Source: Azospirillum thiophilum (GTDB lineage: Bacteria > Pseudomonadota > Alphaproteobacteria > Azospirillales > Azospirillaceae). Taken from it: a stretch of DNA of 64,000 bases. The stretch is taken from positions 951,001 through 1,015,000 of the forward strand of contig NZ_CP012402.1 in assembly GCF_001305595.1 (NCBI RefSeq), given 5' to 3'. How positions within the stretch are numbered: position 1 is the first letter of the stretch; each line of letters opens with the position of its first letter. The notes beneath the pieces were generated by a model. It was not told where the DNA came from. It saw only the letters and a list, made by a program, of their open reading frames with translations, and searched no databases. Made by a program: the position numbers and the translations under genes. Below, one piece after another: positions 59,903-64,000 of the stretch.

Positions 59903-61270
59903 ATGACCAATGTCCTGCATGAGTGCGACGTGCTGGTGGCGGGCGGCGGCAATGCGGCGCTGTGCGCCGCCATCTCGGCCCGCCGGTCAGGTGCCGCCGT
60001 CATGATGCTGGACAGCGCGCCGAGGGCGCTGCGCGGCGGCAATGCCCGGCACTCCCGCAACTTCCGGATCGCGCATGACGAACCGTCCCCCTGGATTCAA
60101 GGCCGCTACCCCGCCGGCGATTACTGGTCCGACCTGCAAGGCGTCGCCGGGAGTGCGGTCGACGAGACGCTGGCGCACCTGCTGATCGGCGAGTCCGCCG
60201 GTATCCTCGGCTGGATGATCGGCAACGGCGTCCGGTTCCAGAGCGCCGACGACGATGCCCTGCCCTATTCCCGGAAAACCGCCTTCTTCCTCGGCGGGGG
60301 AAAGGCGCTGGTCAACGCGCTCTACGCCACCGCCGAAGGGCTGGGGGTCGTTGTCCGCCATGACAGCGAGGTGCGCGCATTTCATCCCGCTGACGGTTTG
60401 ACCGCCGTCACCGTGCTCCGTGATGGGCGCAAGGAGACCATCCGGGCGGGTGCGGTCGTCGTCGCGACCGGCGGATTCCAGGCCGATGGAGACTGGTTGC
60501 GCGACCGATGGGGCGAGGCGGCCGATGGCTTTGTCATCCGCGGCACCCCCCATGCGACCGGCCGGCCGCTGAAGGCGTTGCTGGAGAGCGGCGCCGATCC
60601 CGTCGGGGCGTCCGGCCTTTGCCACATGGTCGCGGTGGATGGCCGCTCGCCGGGATTCGACGGCGGCATCGTCACCCGGCTCGACGGCGTGGCATATGGC
60701 ATCGTCGTCGACCGAAACGGCCGGCGCTTCGCCGACGAGGGGGAGCATGTGGGACCGACGCGCTTTTCCGTGTGGGGCGATCGCGTCGCCCGCTGTCCCG
60801 GCGCCGTCGCCTTCTCGATCTTCGACACGGCGATCGAACGAGGTTTCCGCCCCTCCATCTTCCCGGCGGTCCGGGCGGCGAGCATCGGCGGGCTGGCGGC
60901 CGAACTGGGGATGCTGCCGGCCGTTCTGGAATCCACCGTGGCCGCCTTCAACGCCGCGGTCCGCGCCGGCGGCCATACCGAAGGCATCCTGCCGGCGAAG
61001 ACACGGCTCGCTGCGCCGGTTGCGGTTCCGCCCTTCGGTGCCTATCCGATGCGGGCCGGAGTCACCTCGACCTGCCTGGGGGTGCGGGTCGACTGCAAGG
61101 CGCGGGTGCTGCGGAGCGACGGGCAACCGCTCGGCGGCATCTTTGCGGCGGGCGTCATCATGGCGCCCAACATCCTCGGCCATGGCTATCTGGCGGGAAG
61201 CGCCATGACCATCGGGTCGGTGTTCGGGCGGATCGCCGGACGGGAGGCCGCGGCCCATGCCCGGCGATGA
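59903..61270 (+). CDS. tcuA: FAD-dependent tricarballylate dehydrogenase TcuA type
   Basis: Flavoprotein of 455 residues. The FAD site is CDVLVAGGGNAALCAAISAR near the N-terminus, followed by RGGNARHSRNFRIAHD, a motif peculiar to the TcuA/CobZ group. Later motifs are VVVATGGFQAD, RGTPHATGRPLKALLESGAD and AAGVIMAPNILGHGYLAGSAM. TcuA oxidises tricarballylate to cis-aconitate and TcuB reoxidises its FADH2. In Rhodobacter the fused homologue CobZ instead serves cobalamin synthesis, so the role needs context. No tcuC transporter or TcuR regulator is adjacent. Confidence 0.88.
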   Translation: MTNVLHECDVLVAGGGNAALCAAISARRSGAAVMMLDSAPRALRGGNARHSRNFRIAHDEPSPWIQGRYPAGDYWSDLQGVAGSAVDETLAHLLIGESAGILGWMIGNGVRFQSADDDALPYSRKTAFFLGGGKALVNALYATAEGLGVVVRHDSEVRAFHPADGLTAVTVLRDGRKETIRAGAVVVATGGFQADGDWLRDRWGEAADGFVIRGTPHATGRPLKALLESGADPVGASGLCHMVAVDGRSPGFDGGIVTRLDGVAYGIVVDRNGRRFADEGEHVGPTRFSVWGDRVARCPGAVAFSIFDTAIERGFRPSIFPAVRAASIGGLAAELGMLPAVLESTVAAFNAAVRAGGHTEGILPAKTRLAAPVAVPPFGAYPMRAGVTSTCLGVRVDCKARVLRSDGQPLGGIFAAGVIMAPNILGHGYLAGSAMTIGSVFGRIAGREAAAHARR

Positions 61271-62393
61271 CGGCAACGCGGCGCGGATTGCGCAGGACGC
61301 ACGGCAGGCGCTGGAGATCTGCAATGCCTGCCGGTATTGCGACGGTTATTGCGCCGTATTCCGGGCACTGAGGTCGCGGCGGGAGCTGTCGGCGGCCGAT
61401 CTGAGTTTCCTGTCCAACCTCTGCCACAACTGCCGGGCCTGCTACCATGCCTGCCAGTACGCGCCGCCCCATCCGTTCGACGTCAACATACCGAAAAGCC
61501 TCAGCCTCGTCAGGCAACGAACCTACCGCGACCATGCCTGGCCGGCGCTGCCGGGCGGCCGGGTCCGCCACACCGGCCGCTTCGCGATGGCCGTCACCCT
61601 GTCGATGGTGGCCGTCCTGTCGGTTCCGGCGCTGCTGTGGCTGCCACCGGAGCAAGTGCTGGGGCGGCATTCGGGTGCGGGGGCCTTCTACCGGGTGCTG
61701 CCCTGGAGCCTGATCGCCGGACTTGCCGGGCTGACGCTCCTCTGGTCGCTGCTGTCCGTCGGGTTCAGCGTCGCGGCCTTCTGGCGCAGCATGGGTCCGG
61801 TGCCGCCCGGGGCGGCGACGGGGCCGGCCCTGCGCGACGCCCTGTGGGACATCGCGAGCTTGCGCAACCTCGGTGGCGGCGGGGTCGGCTGCAACGACCG
61901 GGACGACCGCTTCTCGCAAGCCCGGCGCCGCTTCCACCATGCGCTGTCCTATGGCTTCGCGCTCTGCTTCGCCGCCACCGCCGTCGCCACGGTCTACGAC
62001 CATGTGCTTGGCTGGCAGGCGCCCTATCCGGTCTTCAGCCTGCCCGTCCTGCTCGGCAGCCTGGGGGGAGCCGGCATGATGGCCGGGACGGCCGGGCTGG
62101 CTTGGCTGAAGCGCCATGCCGATCCGGGACCGGTGGCGGCGGAGCTGCTGGGCGCCGATCTTGCGCTGCTGGCCCAGTTGTTCCTGATCGCGACCAGCGG
62201 GTTCGCCCTGCTGGCGCTGCGGGAAACGGCCGCGATGGGGCCCTTGCTGCTGATCCATCTGGGCGTCGTGCTGGGCTTCTTCGCGACGCTGCCCTGCGGC
62301 AAGTTCCTCCACGCACCGTTCCGCGCCGCCGCCCTGCTGCGGTGGGCCCTGGAGCGGCAGGAGCAACGACGAAAGGAACCGCCGTCACCGTGA
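61257..62393 (+). CDS. tcuB: TcuB-type Fe-S/heme membrane protein
   Basis: Inner-membrane electron-transfer protein of 378 residues whose start overlaps tcuA by 14 bases. The N-terminal domain holds two 4Fe-4S motifs, CNACRYCDGYC and CHNCRACYHAC. About six hydrophobic helices follow, with His residues (HHALSYGFALCFAATAVATV, LLIHLGVVLGFF) suited to heme b ligation. It passes electrons from the TcuA flavin to the quinone pool. The tight overlap indicates that it works with TcuA. No terminator was seen after it. Confidence 0.88.
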   Translation: MPGDDGNAARIAQDARQALEICNACRYCDGYCAVFRALRSRRELSAADLSFLSNLCHNCRACYHACQYAPPHPFDVNIPKSLSLVRQRTYRDHAWPALPGGRVRHTGRFAMAVTLSMVAVLSVPALLWLPPEQVLGRHSGAGAFYRVLPWSLIAGLAGLTLLWSLLSVGFSVAAFWRSMGPVPPGAATGPALRDALWDIASLRNLGGGGVGCNDRDDRFSQARRRFHHALSYGFALCFAATAVATVYDHVLGWQAPYPVFSLPVLLGSLGGAGMMAGTAGLAWLKRHADPGPVAAELLGADLALLAQLFLIATSGFALLALRETAAMGPLLLIHLGVVLGFFATLPCGKFLHAPFRAAALLRWALERQEQRRKEPPSP

Positions 62394-62414: not shown

Positions 62415-62457
62415 TGTGGGCCGGCTCACATCGGGGATTGGCGGTCTTGGGTAGGGT
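62415..62457 (+). promoter_or_regulatory. Promoter with CRP-like site for the 33-residue-repeat gene
   Basis: TGTGGGCCGGCTCACA (62415-62430) is a nearly perfect palindrome of the CRP/FNR layout TGTGN-N6-TCACA. A -10-like TAGGGT follows at 62452-62457. If transcription starts seven bases later, the palindrome centre is at about -41.5, a class II activator position. The same element with the same spacing precedes the next gene. Confidence 0.55.
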
Positions 62458-62511: not shown

Positions 62512-63054
62512 ATGATCCGCACCGCCCTGCTGACCGGCTTCGCCTCGCTCGCCCTGTTCGCCGCCCCGGCGATGGCCCAGAACATCTCCGACATCTCCAA
62601 CACCGCGGCCGGCGTCGGCAACACCGCAAGCCAGAGCGCCACCGTCCTGCAGAAGTCCAAGGGCGGGTTCGCCGGACCGAACGTCGCCACCGTCTCCAAC
62701 CTCGCCGCCGGCATCGGCAACACCGCCAGCCAGGGCGCCTTCGTCAAGCAGAGGAGCGGCGGCCTGTTCAACGGCGGCTCGATGGCCACCATCGGCAACA
62801 CCGCGGCCGGCATCGGCAACGAGGCCGGGCAGCGGGCCACGGTGATGCAGCGGAGCGGCGGCATGCTGAGCGGCGGCTCGGCCGCCACCATCGGCAACAC
62901 CGCGGCCGGCATCGGCAACACCGCCCTGCAGAGCGGCACCGTGATGCAGCGTTCCGGCGGCATGCTCGGTCCCTTCAACCGCAGCACCATGCAGAACCTC
63001 TCCGCCGGCACCGGCAACTTCGCCGGGCAGAGCGCCTTCGTCAAACAGCGCTGA
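62512..63054 (+). CDS. Exported protein of five 33-residue repeats
   Basis: The 180-residue precursor has signal peptide MIRTALLTGFASLALFAAPA then MAQ. The mature protein is four full and one partial repeat of exactly 33 residues. The consensus is ATIGNTAAGIGNTAxQxATV followed by MQRSGGM and a short turn. Regular N, Q and small residues recall curlin-type or beta-helical repeats, but the spacing is different and I do not recognise a named family. The likely location is periplasm or cell surface. A class II CRP-like promoter lies before it and a clear terminator after it, so it is a single transcription unit. Confidence 0.75.
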   Translation: MIRTALLTGFASLALFAAPAMAQNISDISNTAAGVGNTASQSATVLQKSKGGFAGPNVATVSNLAAGIGNTASQGAFVKQRSGGLFNGGSMATIGNTAAGIGNEAGQRATVMQRSGGMLSGGSAATIGNTAAGIGNTALQSGTVMQRSGGMLGPFNRSTMQNLSAGTGNFAGQSAFVKQR

Positions 63055-63090
63055 TCCCCCCAGTCCTCCTCGGCTTCCTCCCCTGACCTC

Positions 63091-63124
63091 GCTCCGGCCG
63101 GCATCCCGGCCGGAGCCTTCTTTT
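63091..63124 (+). terminator. Rho-independent terminator
   Basis: GCTCCGGCCGG (63091-63101), a CATC loop and CCGGCCGGAGC (63106-63116) are followed by CTTCTTTT. It lies 37 bases after the repeat-protein stop. Confidence 0.88.
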
Positions 63125-63175
63125 GTCCGGGTTCCTTTGCCCGGCAAGGAGGAAGCCCTGAAAACCGCCGGCACT

Positions 63176-63218
63176 TGTGGGGCGGCTCACAGCGGCGAGC
63201 AGACAGCACGGCTAGGCT
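63176..63218 (+). promoter_or_regulatory. Promoter with CRP-like site for the second repeat gene
   Basis: TGTGGGGCGGCTCACA (63176-63191) differs by one base from the site at 62415. TAGGCT (63213-63218) stands at the same distance as TAGGGT there. The identical spacing argues for shared activator control of the two genes. Confidence 0.55.
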
Positions 63219-63284
63219 TCCTCATCGGAACAGGCCGGGGCTTGGAAGCCCGATCGGATGAACCCATTGTCAAGGAGACCACGG

Positions 63285-63758
63285 ATGACCCTCAAGACCC
63301 TTCTCGCCGGCTTGGCCGCCGTCGCACTGCTCGCCTCGCCCGCCCTGGCCCAGCCCAAAGCCGGCACAGGCACCGGAATGGGCCTTCCATCCATGATGGC
63401 CGTGCCCGGGCTGGTCAGCACCAATGTCGGCAACGCCACCAATGTCGGGGCCGGCATCGGCAACACCGCGCAGCAGCAGGGCACCTTCGTCCAGGGCGGA
63501 GGCCAAGGTGGAGGCGTCCCCGTCCGCGGCGGCGGCCCGCTGGTCAGCACCAATGTCGGCACCGCCACCAACGTCGCGGCGGGCATCGGCAACACGGCCG
63601 GCCAGAGGCTGGTCGGCGTCCAGGGCAGCGGCGTCCAGGTCGGGCTGAACTTCAGCGGTCGCGGGCCGCTGGTCAGCACCAATGTCGGGATCGGCACCAA
63701 CGTCACCGCCGGCCTCGGCAACAGTGCGGCCCAATCGCTGACCGGCCTGCGGCGCTGA
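63285..63758 (+). CDS. Exported protein with three STNVG-type repeats
   Basis: Precursor of 157 residues with a strong AAGGAG site and signal peptide MTLKTLLAGLAAVALLASPA then LAQ. The mature part has three copies of LVSTNVGNATNVGAGIGNTA followed by Q-rich and G-rich links. The AGIGNTA core is shared with the repeats of the upstream gene, so the two proteins are probably distant paralogues that work together. The family is unknown to me and the location is likely extracytoplasmic. Confidence 0.75.
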   Translation: MTLKTLLAGLAAVALLASPALAQPKAGTGTGMGLPSMMAVPGLVSTNVGNATNVGAGIGNTAQQQGTFVQGGGQGGGVPVRGGGPLVSTNVGTATNVAAGIGNTAGQRLVGVQGSGVQVGLNFSGRGPLVSTNVGIGTNVTAGLGNSAAQSLTGLRR

Positions 63759-63780
63759 CTGCAGCTTTCCACGCCCATCG

Positions 63781-63818
63781 GGGCGATCCCGATCCGGATC
63801 GACCGGTCGGGATCGCCC
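63781..63818 (+). terminator. Terminator-like long hairpin
   Basis: GGGCGATCCCGA (63781-63792) and TCGGGATCGCCC (63807-63818) form a 12-bp perfect stem. The loop contains CCGG-N5-CCGG, adding an inner stem. There is no T-run. It stands between the second repeat gene and the last gene. Confidence 0.5.
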
Positions 63819-63836
63819 AAACCCCGGGAGTGCTCC

Positions 63837-64000
63837 ATGCCGAAGACCATGCTTGTCCTGGCGCTTTTCCTCGCCGCGCCCACCCTGCCGTTCCTGGCCG
63901 CCCCGGCGCACGCCGACTCCCTGGCCTGCCAGACGGTCAACGGCAAGACCGTCTGCCTGCGCGGTTCGGGGACGCTGAACTGCGTGACGGTCAACGGCGA
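63837..64000 (+). CDS. Small exported Cys-containing protein, 3' end outside window
   Basis: The frame runs off the window after 54 residues. The ATG at 63837 has GGGAG upstream. A signal peptide (MPKTMLVLALFLAAPTLPFL then AAPAHA) is followed by SLACQTVNGKTVCLRGSGTL and NCVTVNG, in which Cys-x-TVNG recurs, suggesting another repeat protein with disulfides or metal-binding Cys. It is the third small exported protein in a row. Family not recognised. Confidence 0.65.
   Translation, partial: MPKTMLVLALFLAAPTLPFLAAPAHADSLACQTVNGKTVCLRGSGTLNCVTVNG

Follow-up and report, generated by a model that had tools for sequence, protein, structure and literature searches.

The closest described counterparts of the locus presented here are curli, whose curlin units measure 23 ± 5 residues (PMC10192328); the HfaA/HfaB pair of Caulobacter, in which a CsgA-similar protein has a CsgG-similar partner (PMC6707917); and FapC, with conserved Asn/Gln networks and stacked imperfect repeats (PMC12392863). 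On the side of regulation, CgrA of R. centenum is a CRP homologue of the Azospirillum clade that uses cGMP and the site TGTGA-N6-TCACA, acts as the encystment master regulator with 45 directly regulated genes, and has cyclase-related genes in its own operon (PMC4681086). Here, we describe a gene cluster that starts near the end of a 64,000-nucleotide stretch of the Azospirillum thiophilum genome (hereafter, the window) and encodes two exported repeat proteins, P1 and P2, a CRP-family regulator, a cyclase, and a CsgG-like lipoprotein. The reading that we favor, and hold to be moderately probable, is that P1 and P2 serve as the subunits of a new extracellular fiber, curli-like and CsgG-dependent, that is probably of amyloid type and distinct from true curli.

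P1, P2, and a third gene, P3, form a tandem row on the + strand within the last 1.6 kb of the window. Window positions equal the position in L004, a stretch of G000:C2 of the A. thiophilum genome (G000), plus 57000. Signal peptides were judged by eye from a basic start, a hydrophobic stretch, and A-x-A, and the ATG at 63285 was taken as the start of P2 for its ribosome-binding site, the mechanical open reading frame beginning at 63258.

62512..63054, + strand: P1, 180 residues, exported (signal peptide by eye), five 33-residue repeats
Residues 30, 63, 96, 129, and 162 of P1: repeat Asn positions
63285..63758, + strand: P2, 157 residues, exported (signal peptide by eye), three 43-residue-spaced STNVG...GIGN-type repeats
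63837..64000, + strand: P3, small exported protein with two C-x-TVNG units, gene cut by the window end (full length in the genome 116 residues, L004:6837-7187)

An earlier reading made from the letters of the window (the sequence-only reading) had seen, in a row, a small exported protein with exact 33-residue repeats, a paralogue with LVSTNVG repeats, and a third secreted protein with recurring CxTVNG. Repeats of exact period in exported proteins, 33 residues in P1 and 43 in P2 with a shared GIGN-type motif, were borne out by a shuffle test and by Tandem Repeats Finder: The self-identity of P1 was 0.61 at a lag of 33 and 0.52 at a lag of 66 against a shuffle maximum of 0.24 (n = 2000), that of P2 was 0.51 at a lag of 43 (shuffle maximum, 0.28), and the DNA contained 99-bp (P1) and 129-bp (P2) arrays. 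The copies themselves are inexact despite the exact period, as the three full 33-residue units of P1 are 52-76% identical and its five 24-residue cores 46-79%. P1 and P2 are related, with N-x-A-A-G-x-G-N-x-A-x-Q common to both, but P3 lacks the N/Q ladder and is a mere neighbor, not a copy of P1 or P2.

Across nine 180-residue P1 sequences (45 units), the unit consensus was [NS]-x-[AS]-x-[IVM]-x-N-x-[AS]-A-G-x-G-N-x-A-x-Q-x-[AG]-x-V-x-Q, and nine positions (N7, A10, G11, G13, N14, A16, Q18, V22, and Q24) were invariant in 45/45 units; such fixed alternate residues are expected if strands bury one side. P2 relatives carried blocks like N-x-A-A-G-x-G-N-x-A-x-Q (39 matches in 13/13 proteins; shuffle mean, 0). 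When P1 was compared with its orthologues, third codon positions varied most in 5/5 comparisons (for example, 19/11/28 at positions 1/2/3). We found no Pfam or NCBIfam match for P1, only matches below the cut-off for P2 (the Pfam one being to an unrelated family), nothing in Pfam and NCBIfam for P3, and no relative among PDB sequences for P1, P2, or a P1 profile. These profile checks, curlin included, agree with the earlier placement of P1 and P2 in no known family.

The sequence-only reading had also proposed that the N/Q ladders could form a beta-solenoid or an amyloid-like surface fiber and had asked for a structure prediction, which we ran on P1. The AlphaFold2 model (32 sequences) folds ten strands into five strand-turn-strand layers, in which N and Q recur at set positions; its confidence was moderate [predicted local distance difference test (pLDDT), 73.9; predicted template modeling score, 0.66]. 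The first two rows of a Foldseek search of the PDB were FapC (9u4u; E 0.016) and CsgA (E 0.018), and VIA-align placed the CsgA fibril 8enq first (Z 10.7, 110 residues, root mean square deviation 8.4), in a list that covers Foldseek's own matches only, so that a fold missing there says nothing. The beta-solenoid proposed for P1 is thus supported by the model, if more weakly than its repeats.

Both repeat genes are preceded by a CRP-type operator and a -10 element at the same spacing. The two operators lie inside the window and were absent from the sequence-only reading; the partner genes of P1 and P2 lie mostly beyond it.

62415..62430, + strand: CRP-type operator of P1, TGTGGGCCGGCTCACA
62452..62457, + strand: P1 -10 element TAGGGT, 21 bp past the operator, operator center at -41.5
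63091..63116, + strand: terminator-like hairpin after P1 with a T-rich tail, -25.5 kcal/mol, z -4.7
63176..63191, + strand: CRP-type operator of P2, TGTGGGGCGGCTCACA
63213..63218, + strand: P2 -10 element TAGGCT, 21 bp past the operator

The palindrome center of -41.5 follows by arithmetic from the 21-bp spacing, and we take it to be the class II CRP position; a consensus sigma-70 promoter with a -35 element was not found at the P1 promoter. The strong hairpin between P1 and P2 probably makes them separate transcription units; the hairpin scan after P1 gave two overlapping matches against 0.9 expected by chance.

This arrangement was widely kept among relatives. TGTG[AG]-N6-[CT]CACA followed by TANNNT at exactly 21 bp was present in 40/42 distinct relatives, and the two without an operator (L044 and L045) sit directly behind another repeat gene. 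In the GTDB set, we found the operator with a -10 element at 21 or 22 bp in 67/75 proteins, a count from which 4/79 proteins were excluded, one because it lies at a contig edge and three because their starts were mis-called. Of the eight proteins without it, three are encoded by the second gene of a pair. In the other five, the palindrome deviates by a single base: Those of L240, L248, and L257 keep the -10 element and the 21-bp spacing, and the two of L239 have no -10 element that matches. The sets of 42 and 75 relatives overlap in many genomes and are not independent.

The strict operator pattern TGTGR-N6-YCACA occurs three times in the 7.6-Mb A. thiophilum genome, twice at P1 and P2. It was found in 42/45 genomes of the genus, where a backward control gave two matches in total, at 0 to 15 sites per genome, mostly TGTGG. 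The 35 genomes that have the regulator (see below) account for 181 sites and the 10 that lack it for 8; of these 8, six are TGTGA-type and one belongs to what is left of a deleted cluster. TGTGA sites in six regulator-free genomes suggest that another CRP-type protein may use them. In G001 and G005 (L103 and L105), operators stand back to back, and a DUF4384 gene and a DUF1150 gene read outward from them. The third strict site of A. thiophilum (G000:C1:1241974; L064, L119) is TGTGA-type and precedes a small predicted membrane protein.

Because the operators are of CRP type, a CRP-type protein was looked for, and one was found inside the cluster. The cluster spans ~12.5 kb and extends past the window end.

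L004:7418-8128: CRP-family regulator gene, between P3 and P4
L004:8221-8937: P4, after the regulator, exported, 238 residues, two degenerate repeats, own operator with spacing 22
Beyond P4, opposite strand: caspase-Ig-SH3-FGE protein, His-Cys dyad kept
L004:11977-13914, opposite strand: CHASE2 class III cyclase
Opposite strand: DUF4384 protein and OmpA protein
L004:16422-17963, opposite strand: CsgG-like/PG_binding_1/DUF4384 lipoprotein, ~10 kb downstream of P1/P2
Opposite strand: DUF4399 proteins

The regulator has a cNMP_binding domain (PF00027; E 6.6e-24) and a Crp helix-turn-helix domain (PF13545; E 7e-16). In CRP, E72, R82, and T127 serve the cyclic nucleotide, and R180 and E181 contact DNA; compared with Escherichia coli CRP, all five were kept in 9/9 homologues of the regulator. 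S83 is T in 9/9 homologues, S128 is T in G037, and R185 is K in 8/9, while the residue E58 of activating region 3 (AR3) is kept and those of AR1 and AR2 mostly are not. The regulator thus has the cyclic-nucleotide residues of the CRP subfamily, from which ligand binding is predicted, and it would be this protein that binds the P1 and P2 operators.

The sequence-only reading had further suggested looking for the repeats in other genomes, and this search showed how closely repeats and regulator travel together. P1 and P2 each matched the same 26/61 genomes, all Azospirillum, in a set that combined 37 genomes of the genus, that of A. thiophilum among them, with 24 from other families of the class. 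The regulator was present in 26/26 genomes with P1/P2 and in 1/11 without (G027), such that 36/37 were concordant, uncorrected for kinship. An orthologue of at least 75% identity occurred in 35/45 genomes of the genus, one of them partial, the other listed matches reaching at most 46%. One genome, G010, carries a deletion scar (C2:524661; L126, L192). There, the P1 operator and first codons are followed by 35 regulator residues (83% identical) and, on the other strand, by 22 residues from the beginning of the CsgG-like protein (95%); apart from these, nothing significant from the cluster was found in G010.

When one genome per GTDB species was scanned by pattern, an approach that misses distant relatives, 66 loci emerged, 58 of them named Azospirillum. 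The others are from two Rhodospirillales metagenome-assembled genomes (MAGs; L239, L240), Caenispirillum salinarum (two loci, L248 and L257), a strain named Roseomonas (three loci, L242, L249, and L259), and a MAG named Magnetospirillum (L247); the copy in this last MAG is very similar to those of A. brasilense, and the locus may reflect a binning error. Several genomes hold many copies, with six P1 loci in A. canadense, and P1 relatives have three to five units. The cluster arrangement is kept in several Azospirillum genomes (L149, L150, L151, L191, and L193), whereas genomes of the A. brasilense type carry the repeat genes apart from the regulator-cyclase block, with the same operator at both places. 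The annotation of A. ramasamyi lists its P1-P4 counterparts as 'hypothetical protein'.

The candidate pore of the cluster is the CsgG-like lipoprotein, in which we read a lipobox-like LGGC by eye. Pfam CsgG (PF03783) scored 23.9 bits (E 2.9e-5) in G026, above its cut-off of 20.8, and was also above it in G034. Upon searching a structural model of the lipoprotein with Foldseek against 350,542 PDB chains, we found that the nine first rows were all CsgG 4uv2 (E 4.6e-5 to 2.7e-4; probability 1.00; TM score 0.38 or less). A CsgG fold of this lipoprotein is therefore supported, again more weakly and by way of a predicted model. Orthologues of at least 75% identity occurred in 33/45 genomes of the genus, and in 25/26 genomes with repeats against 0/11 without, uncorrected for kinship, with a 36% relative in G028.

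In a sample of 385 genomes of the class, CsgG-like matches occurred in 9, the A. thiophilum one included, and we inspected the neighborhoods in 7 of the 8 other genomes (G330 left out). In 4/7, a small exported protein with internal repeats of different sequence was seen by eye, without chance control, at ~0.5 kb (L277, L280), 1.1 kb (L275), or 7.6 kb (L276) from the CsgG-like gene; no small exported repeat protein was seen by eye in the remaining 3/7 (L278, L279, L281). Besides two operators, L276 also contains genes for the regulator (68%), cyclase, OmpA, and caspase-FGE, together with P4-, DUF1150-, and, weakly, P3-like genes. With P1 as bait, a CsgG-like gene (60-66%) adjoined the repeat genes outside the genus in L239, L240, and L257. 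Parts of the cluster thus recur in other alphaproteobacterial families.

The remaining genes of the cluster add a few details. P4 has a conserved IRGDAGFLAGF-like segment, and a Pfam search of one P4 homologue (from another genome) gave nothing. For contact with the base, class III adenylyl cyclases usually have Lys. The cyclase of the cluster and its orthologues carry Arg at this position, with Lys in the G037 relative, and the product of the A. thiophilum cyclase may be unusual. A caspase cut site at the basic residue after the last Q of the P1 unit was considered and dropped, as the A. brasilense-type copies lack a basic residue there. Directly upstream of P1 lie tcuA-tcuB (tricarballylate use; window 59903-62393), which are probably outside the system because A. 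ramasamyi has other genes in their place.

A CsgG-like protein and a dedicated regulator in one cluster fit an extracellular fiber. In the mechanism that we propose, P1 and P2 would leave the cytoplasm via Sec and cross the outer membrane through the CsgG-like lipoprotein, whose peptidoglycan (PG)-binding domain may tie the pore to the cell wall. Outside, the subunits would stack as beta-solenoids via their N and Q ladders, with P4 as a candidate minor or tethering subunit. The regulator, together with cAMP or cGMP, would activate P1, P2, P4, and the partner genes at class II sites (-41.5), the CHASE2 class III cyclase of the cluster being the likely signal source. The repeats, the operators, the regulator residues, the linkage of the genes, and their co-occurrence are established by computation, and the secretion route, the polymerization, the ligand, and a role in biofilm, flocculation, or a cyst coat are what we infer; by analogy with the cGMP control of cysts by CgrA at TGTGA-N6-TCACA, a cyst or flocculation coat would be a fair guess.

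Several results weigh against the fiber reading. The other four P1 models had pLDDT values from 61.7 to 42.0, and Foldseek compared P1 with FapC and CsgA at a probability of 0.13 or less and a TM score of 0.16 or less. In VIA-align, a SufBCD-complex chain, which is no amyloid, came next after CsgA at Z 9.9 and a better root mean square deviation of 3.8; with such a chain scoring near CsgA, a solenoid fold alone is no proof of amyloid. The CsgG-like protein of A. thiophilum itself scored 16.9 bits in Pfam CsgG, below the cut-off, and the Pfam CsgG genome scan gave no match in this genome; its model, from six sequences, was poor (pLDDT 51), hhalign to the true CsgG of the genus gave E 0.056 at a probability of 1%, and no PDB CsgG was found by sequence or profile search. 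The draft genome G012 has repeats and no CsgG-like match, and the decayed locus of G027 (L190) holds regulator, cyclase, DUF4384, and DUF1150-like genes and one operator, with no P1/P2 or CsgG-like match in that genome. CsgE and CsgF had 0 matches in A. thiophilum at E 0.1, which weighs little because, according to PMC3521004, CsgE is missing from the curli systems of alphaproteobacteria and CsgF from those of about half of the genera. Last, the curli genes of G020 (C15:148-153 kb) lie ~6 kb from its P1/P2 copies (C15:159-161 kb), so that curli and the P1/P2-type system may not be fully distinct in this genome.

Part of this evidence would suit P1 and P2 as non-polymerizing solenoids, that is, as monomeric surface or periplasmic adhesins or as peptidoglycan-tied structural proteins (with OmpA and PG-binding partners) whose N/Q ladders serve folding only. 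The beta-solenoid fold is common in non-amyloid proteins, with Suf-complex chains at Z 7.5-9.9, and polymers of P1 and P2 are inferred; repeats that stack strictly, a sequence in which we noticed no capping domain, and the CsgG-like partner in the cluster, outside the genus too, nevertheless make this explanation unlikely in our view. Far less credit is due to divergent curlins of a canonical curli system. CsgA as best VIA-align match, the CsgG-like protein, and the proximity in G020 would speak for them, but Curlin_rpt (PF07012) had no match in A. thiophilum at E 1, the CsgG, CsgE, and CsgF searches were silent in this genome as well, and the curlin motif X6-Q-X-G-X2-N-X10 (pattern of PMC3521004) was found in 0/29 P1 and 0/13 P2 sequences, 0/42 relatives in all (shuffle means, 6.5 and 1.7 matches). 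The looser X6-Q-X10-Q occurred in 7/29 P1 and 1/13 P2 sequences (8/42), with fewer matches than in shuffles. Moreover, 10/45 genomes of the genus have a separate curlin, CsgG, and CsgF set, with Curlin_rpt above its cut-off in genes other than P1/P2, CsgG E values below 1e-54, and CsgF above its cut-off. Among these ten, G002 is without the system described here, while the other nine have orthologues of its regulator and CsgG-like protein, and in most of the nine the curli genes and the P1/P2-type system lie on different contigs or far apart. Canonical curli were rejected as a candidate on these grounds.

A Fap-type system is at least as hard to sustain: FapC 9u4u was the first Foldseek row, and Asn and Gln are conserved in the imperfect repeats of FapC (PMC12392863), yet the Foldseek probability and TM score were low, P1, P2, and the P1 profile had no PDB FapC match at E 10 (FapF was not searched for), and P1 has 33-residue strand-turn-strand units where FapC has Greek-key layers. 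We give similarly little credence to low-complexity or disordered secreted proteins without a structural role, with a regulon that serves something else. P1 and P2 are small and Gly/Ala/Asn-rich, and four of the five P1 models were of low confidence, but nine positions invariant in 45 units, the exact period, the conserved operators, and the paralogue families argue against disorder.

The curli-like fiber thus remains our preferred reading, and we found no account of it: Among the matches listed for literature titles on Azospirillum amyloid, curli, and cyclase and on DUF4384, CgrA, Hfa, and CsgG/FapC, the cluster was absent, and in the available part of an A. brasilense cyst transcriptome (PMC6159551), none of its genes was recognized by name. 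More boldly, and with doubt outweighing confidence, we suggest a third Gram-negative functional-amyloid system beside curli and Fap, which would combine N-x-A-A-G-x-G-N-x-A-x-Q solenoid subunits, a peptidoglycan-anchored CsgG-DUF4384 pore, a dedicated CRP with its own membrane cyclase, extracytoplasmic orthocaspase-FGE maturation, a distribution over several alphaproteobacterial families, and fast-changing repeats. Azospirillum is in wide use as a plant-growth-promoting inoculant. Should the proposed fiber be that of its matrix, then the cluster would name genes and a switch for surface attachment, flocculation, or cyst coats; this would also suggest that CsgG-family pores serve repeat subunits that are invisible to curlin searches and that such a fiber system can be run by a CRP with a cyclase of its own.

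Compared with the described systems, the cluster shares with curli the exported N/Q repeat proteins with strand-turn-strand units and the CsgG-like lipoprotein, but differs in its units of 33 and 43 residues, its motif N-x-A-A-G-x-G-N-x-A-x-Q, the fusion of its CsgG-like protein to PG_binding_1 and DUF4384, and its CRP-type operators. HfaA/HfaB, compared by description, is likewise an alphaproteobacterial pair of a CsgA-similar and a CsgG-similar protein; it anchors a polysaccharide holdfast, however, and no CRP regulon, cyclase, or caspase partner is described for it in the available part of PMC6707917. Pseudomonas FapC resembles P1 in the Asn/Gln of its imperfect repeats and headed its Foldseek rows, whereas its Greek-key layers are joined by linkers. 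By description, CgrA is also a CRP homologue with a palindromic site and cyclic-nucleotide control beside cyclase-related genes, and it differs from the regulator described here in its many direct targets, set against the few, mostly TGTGG, sites per genome found in Azospirillum.

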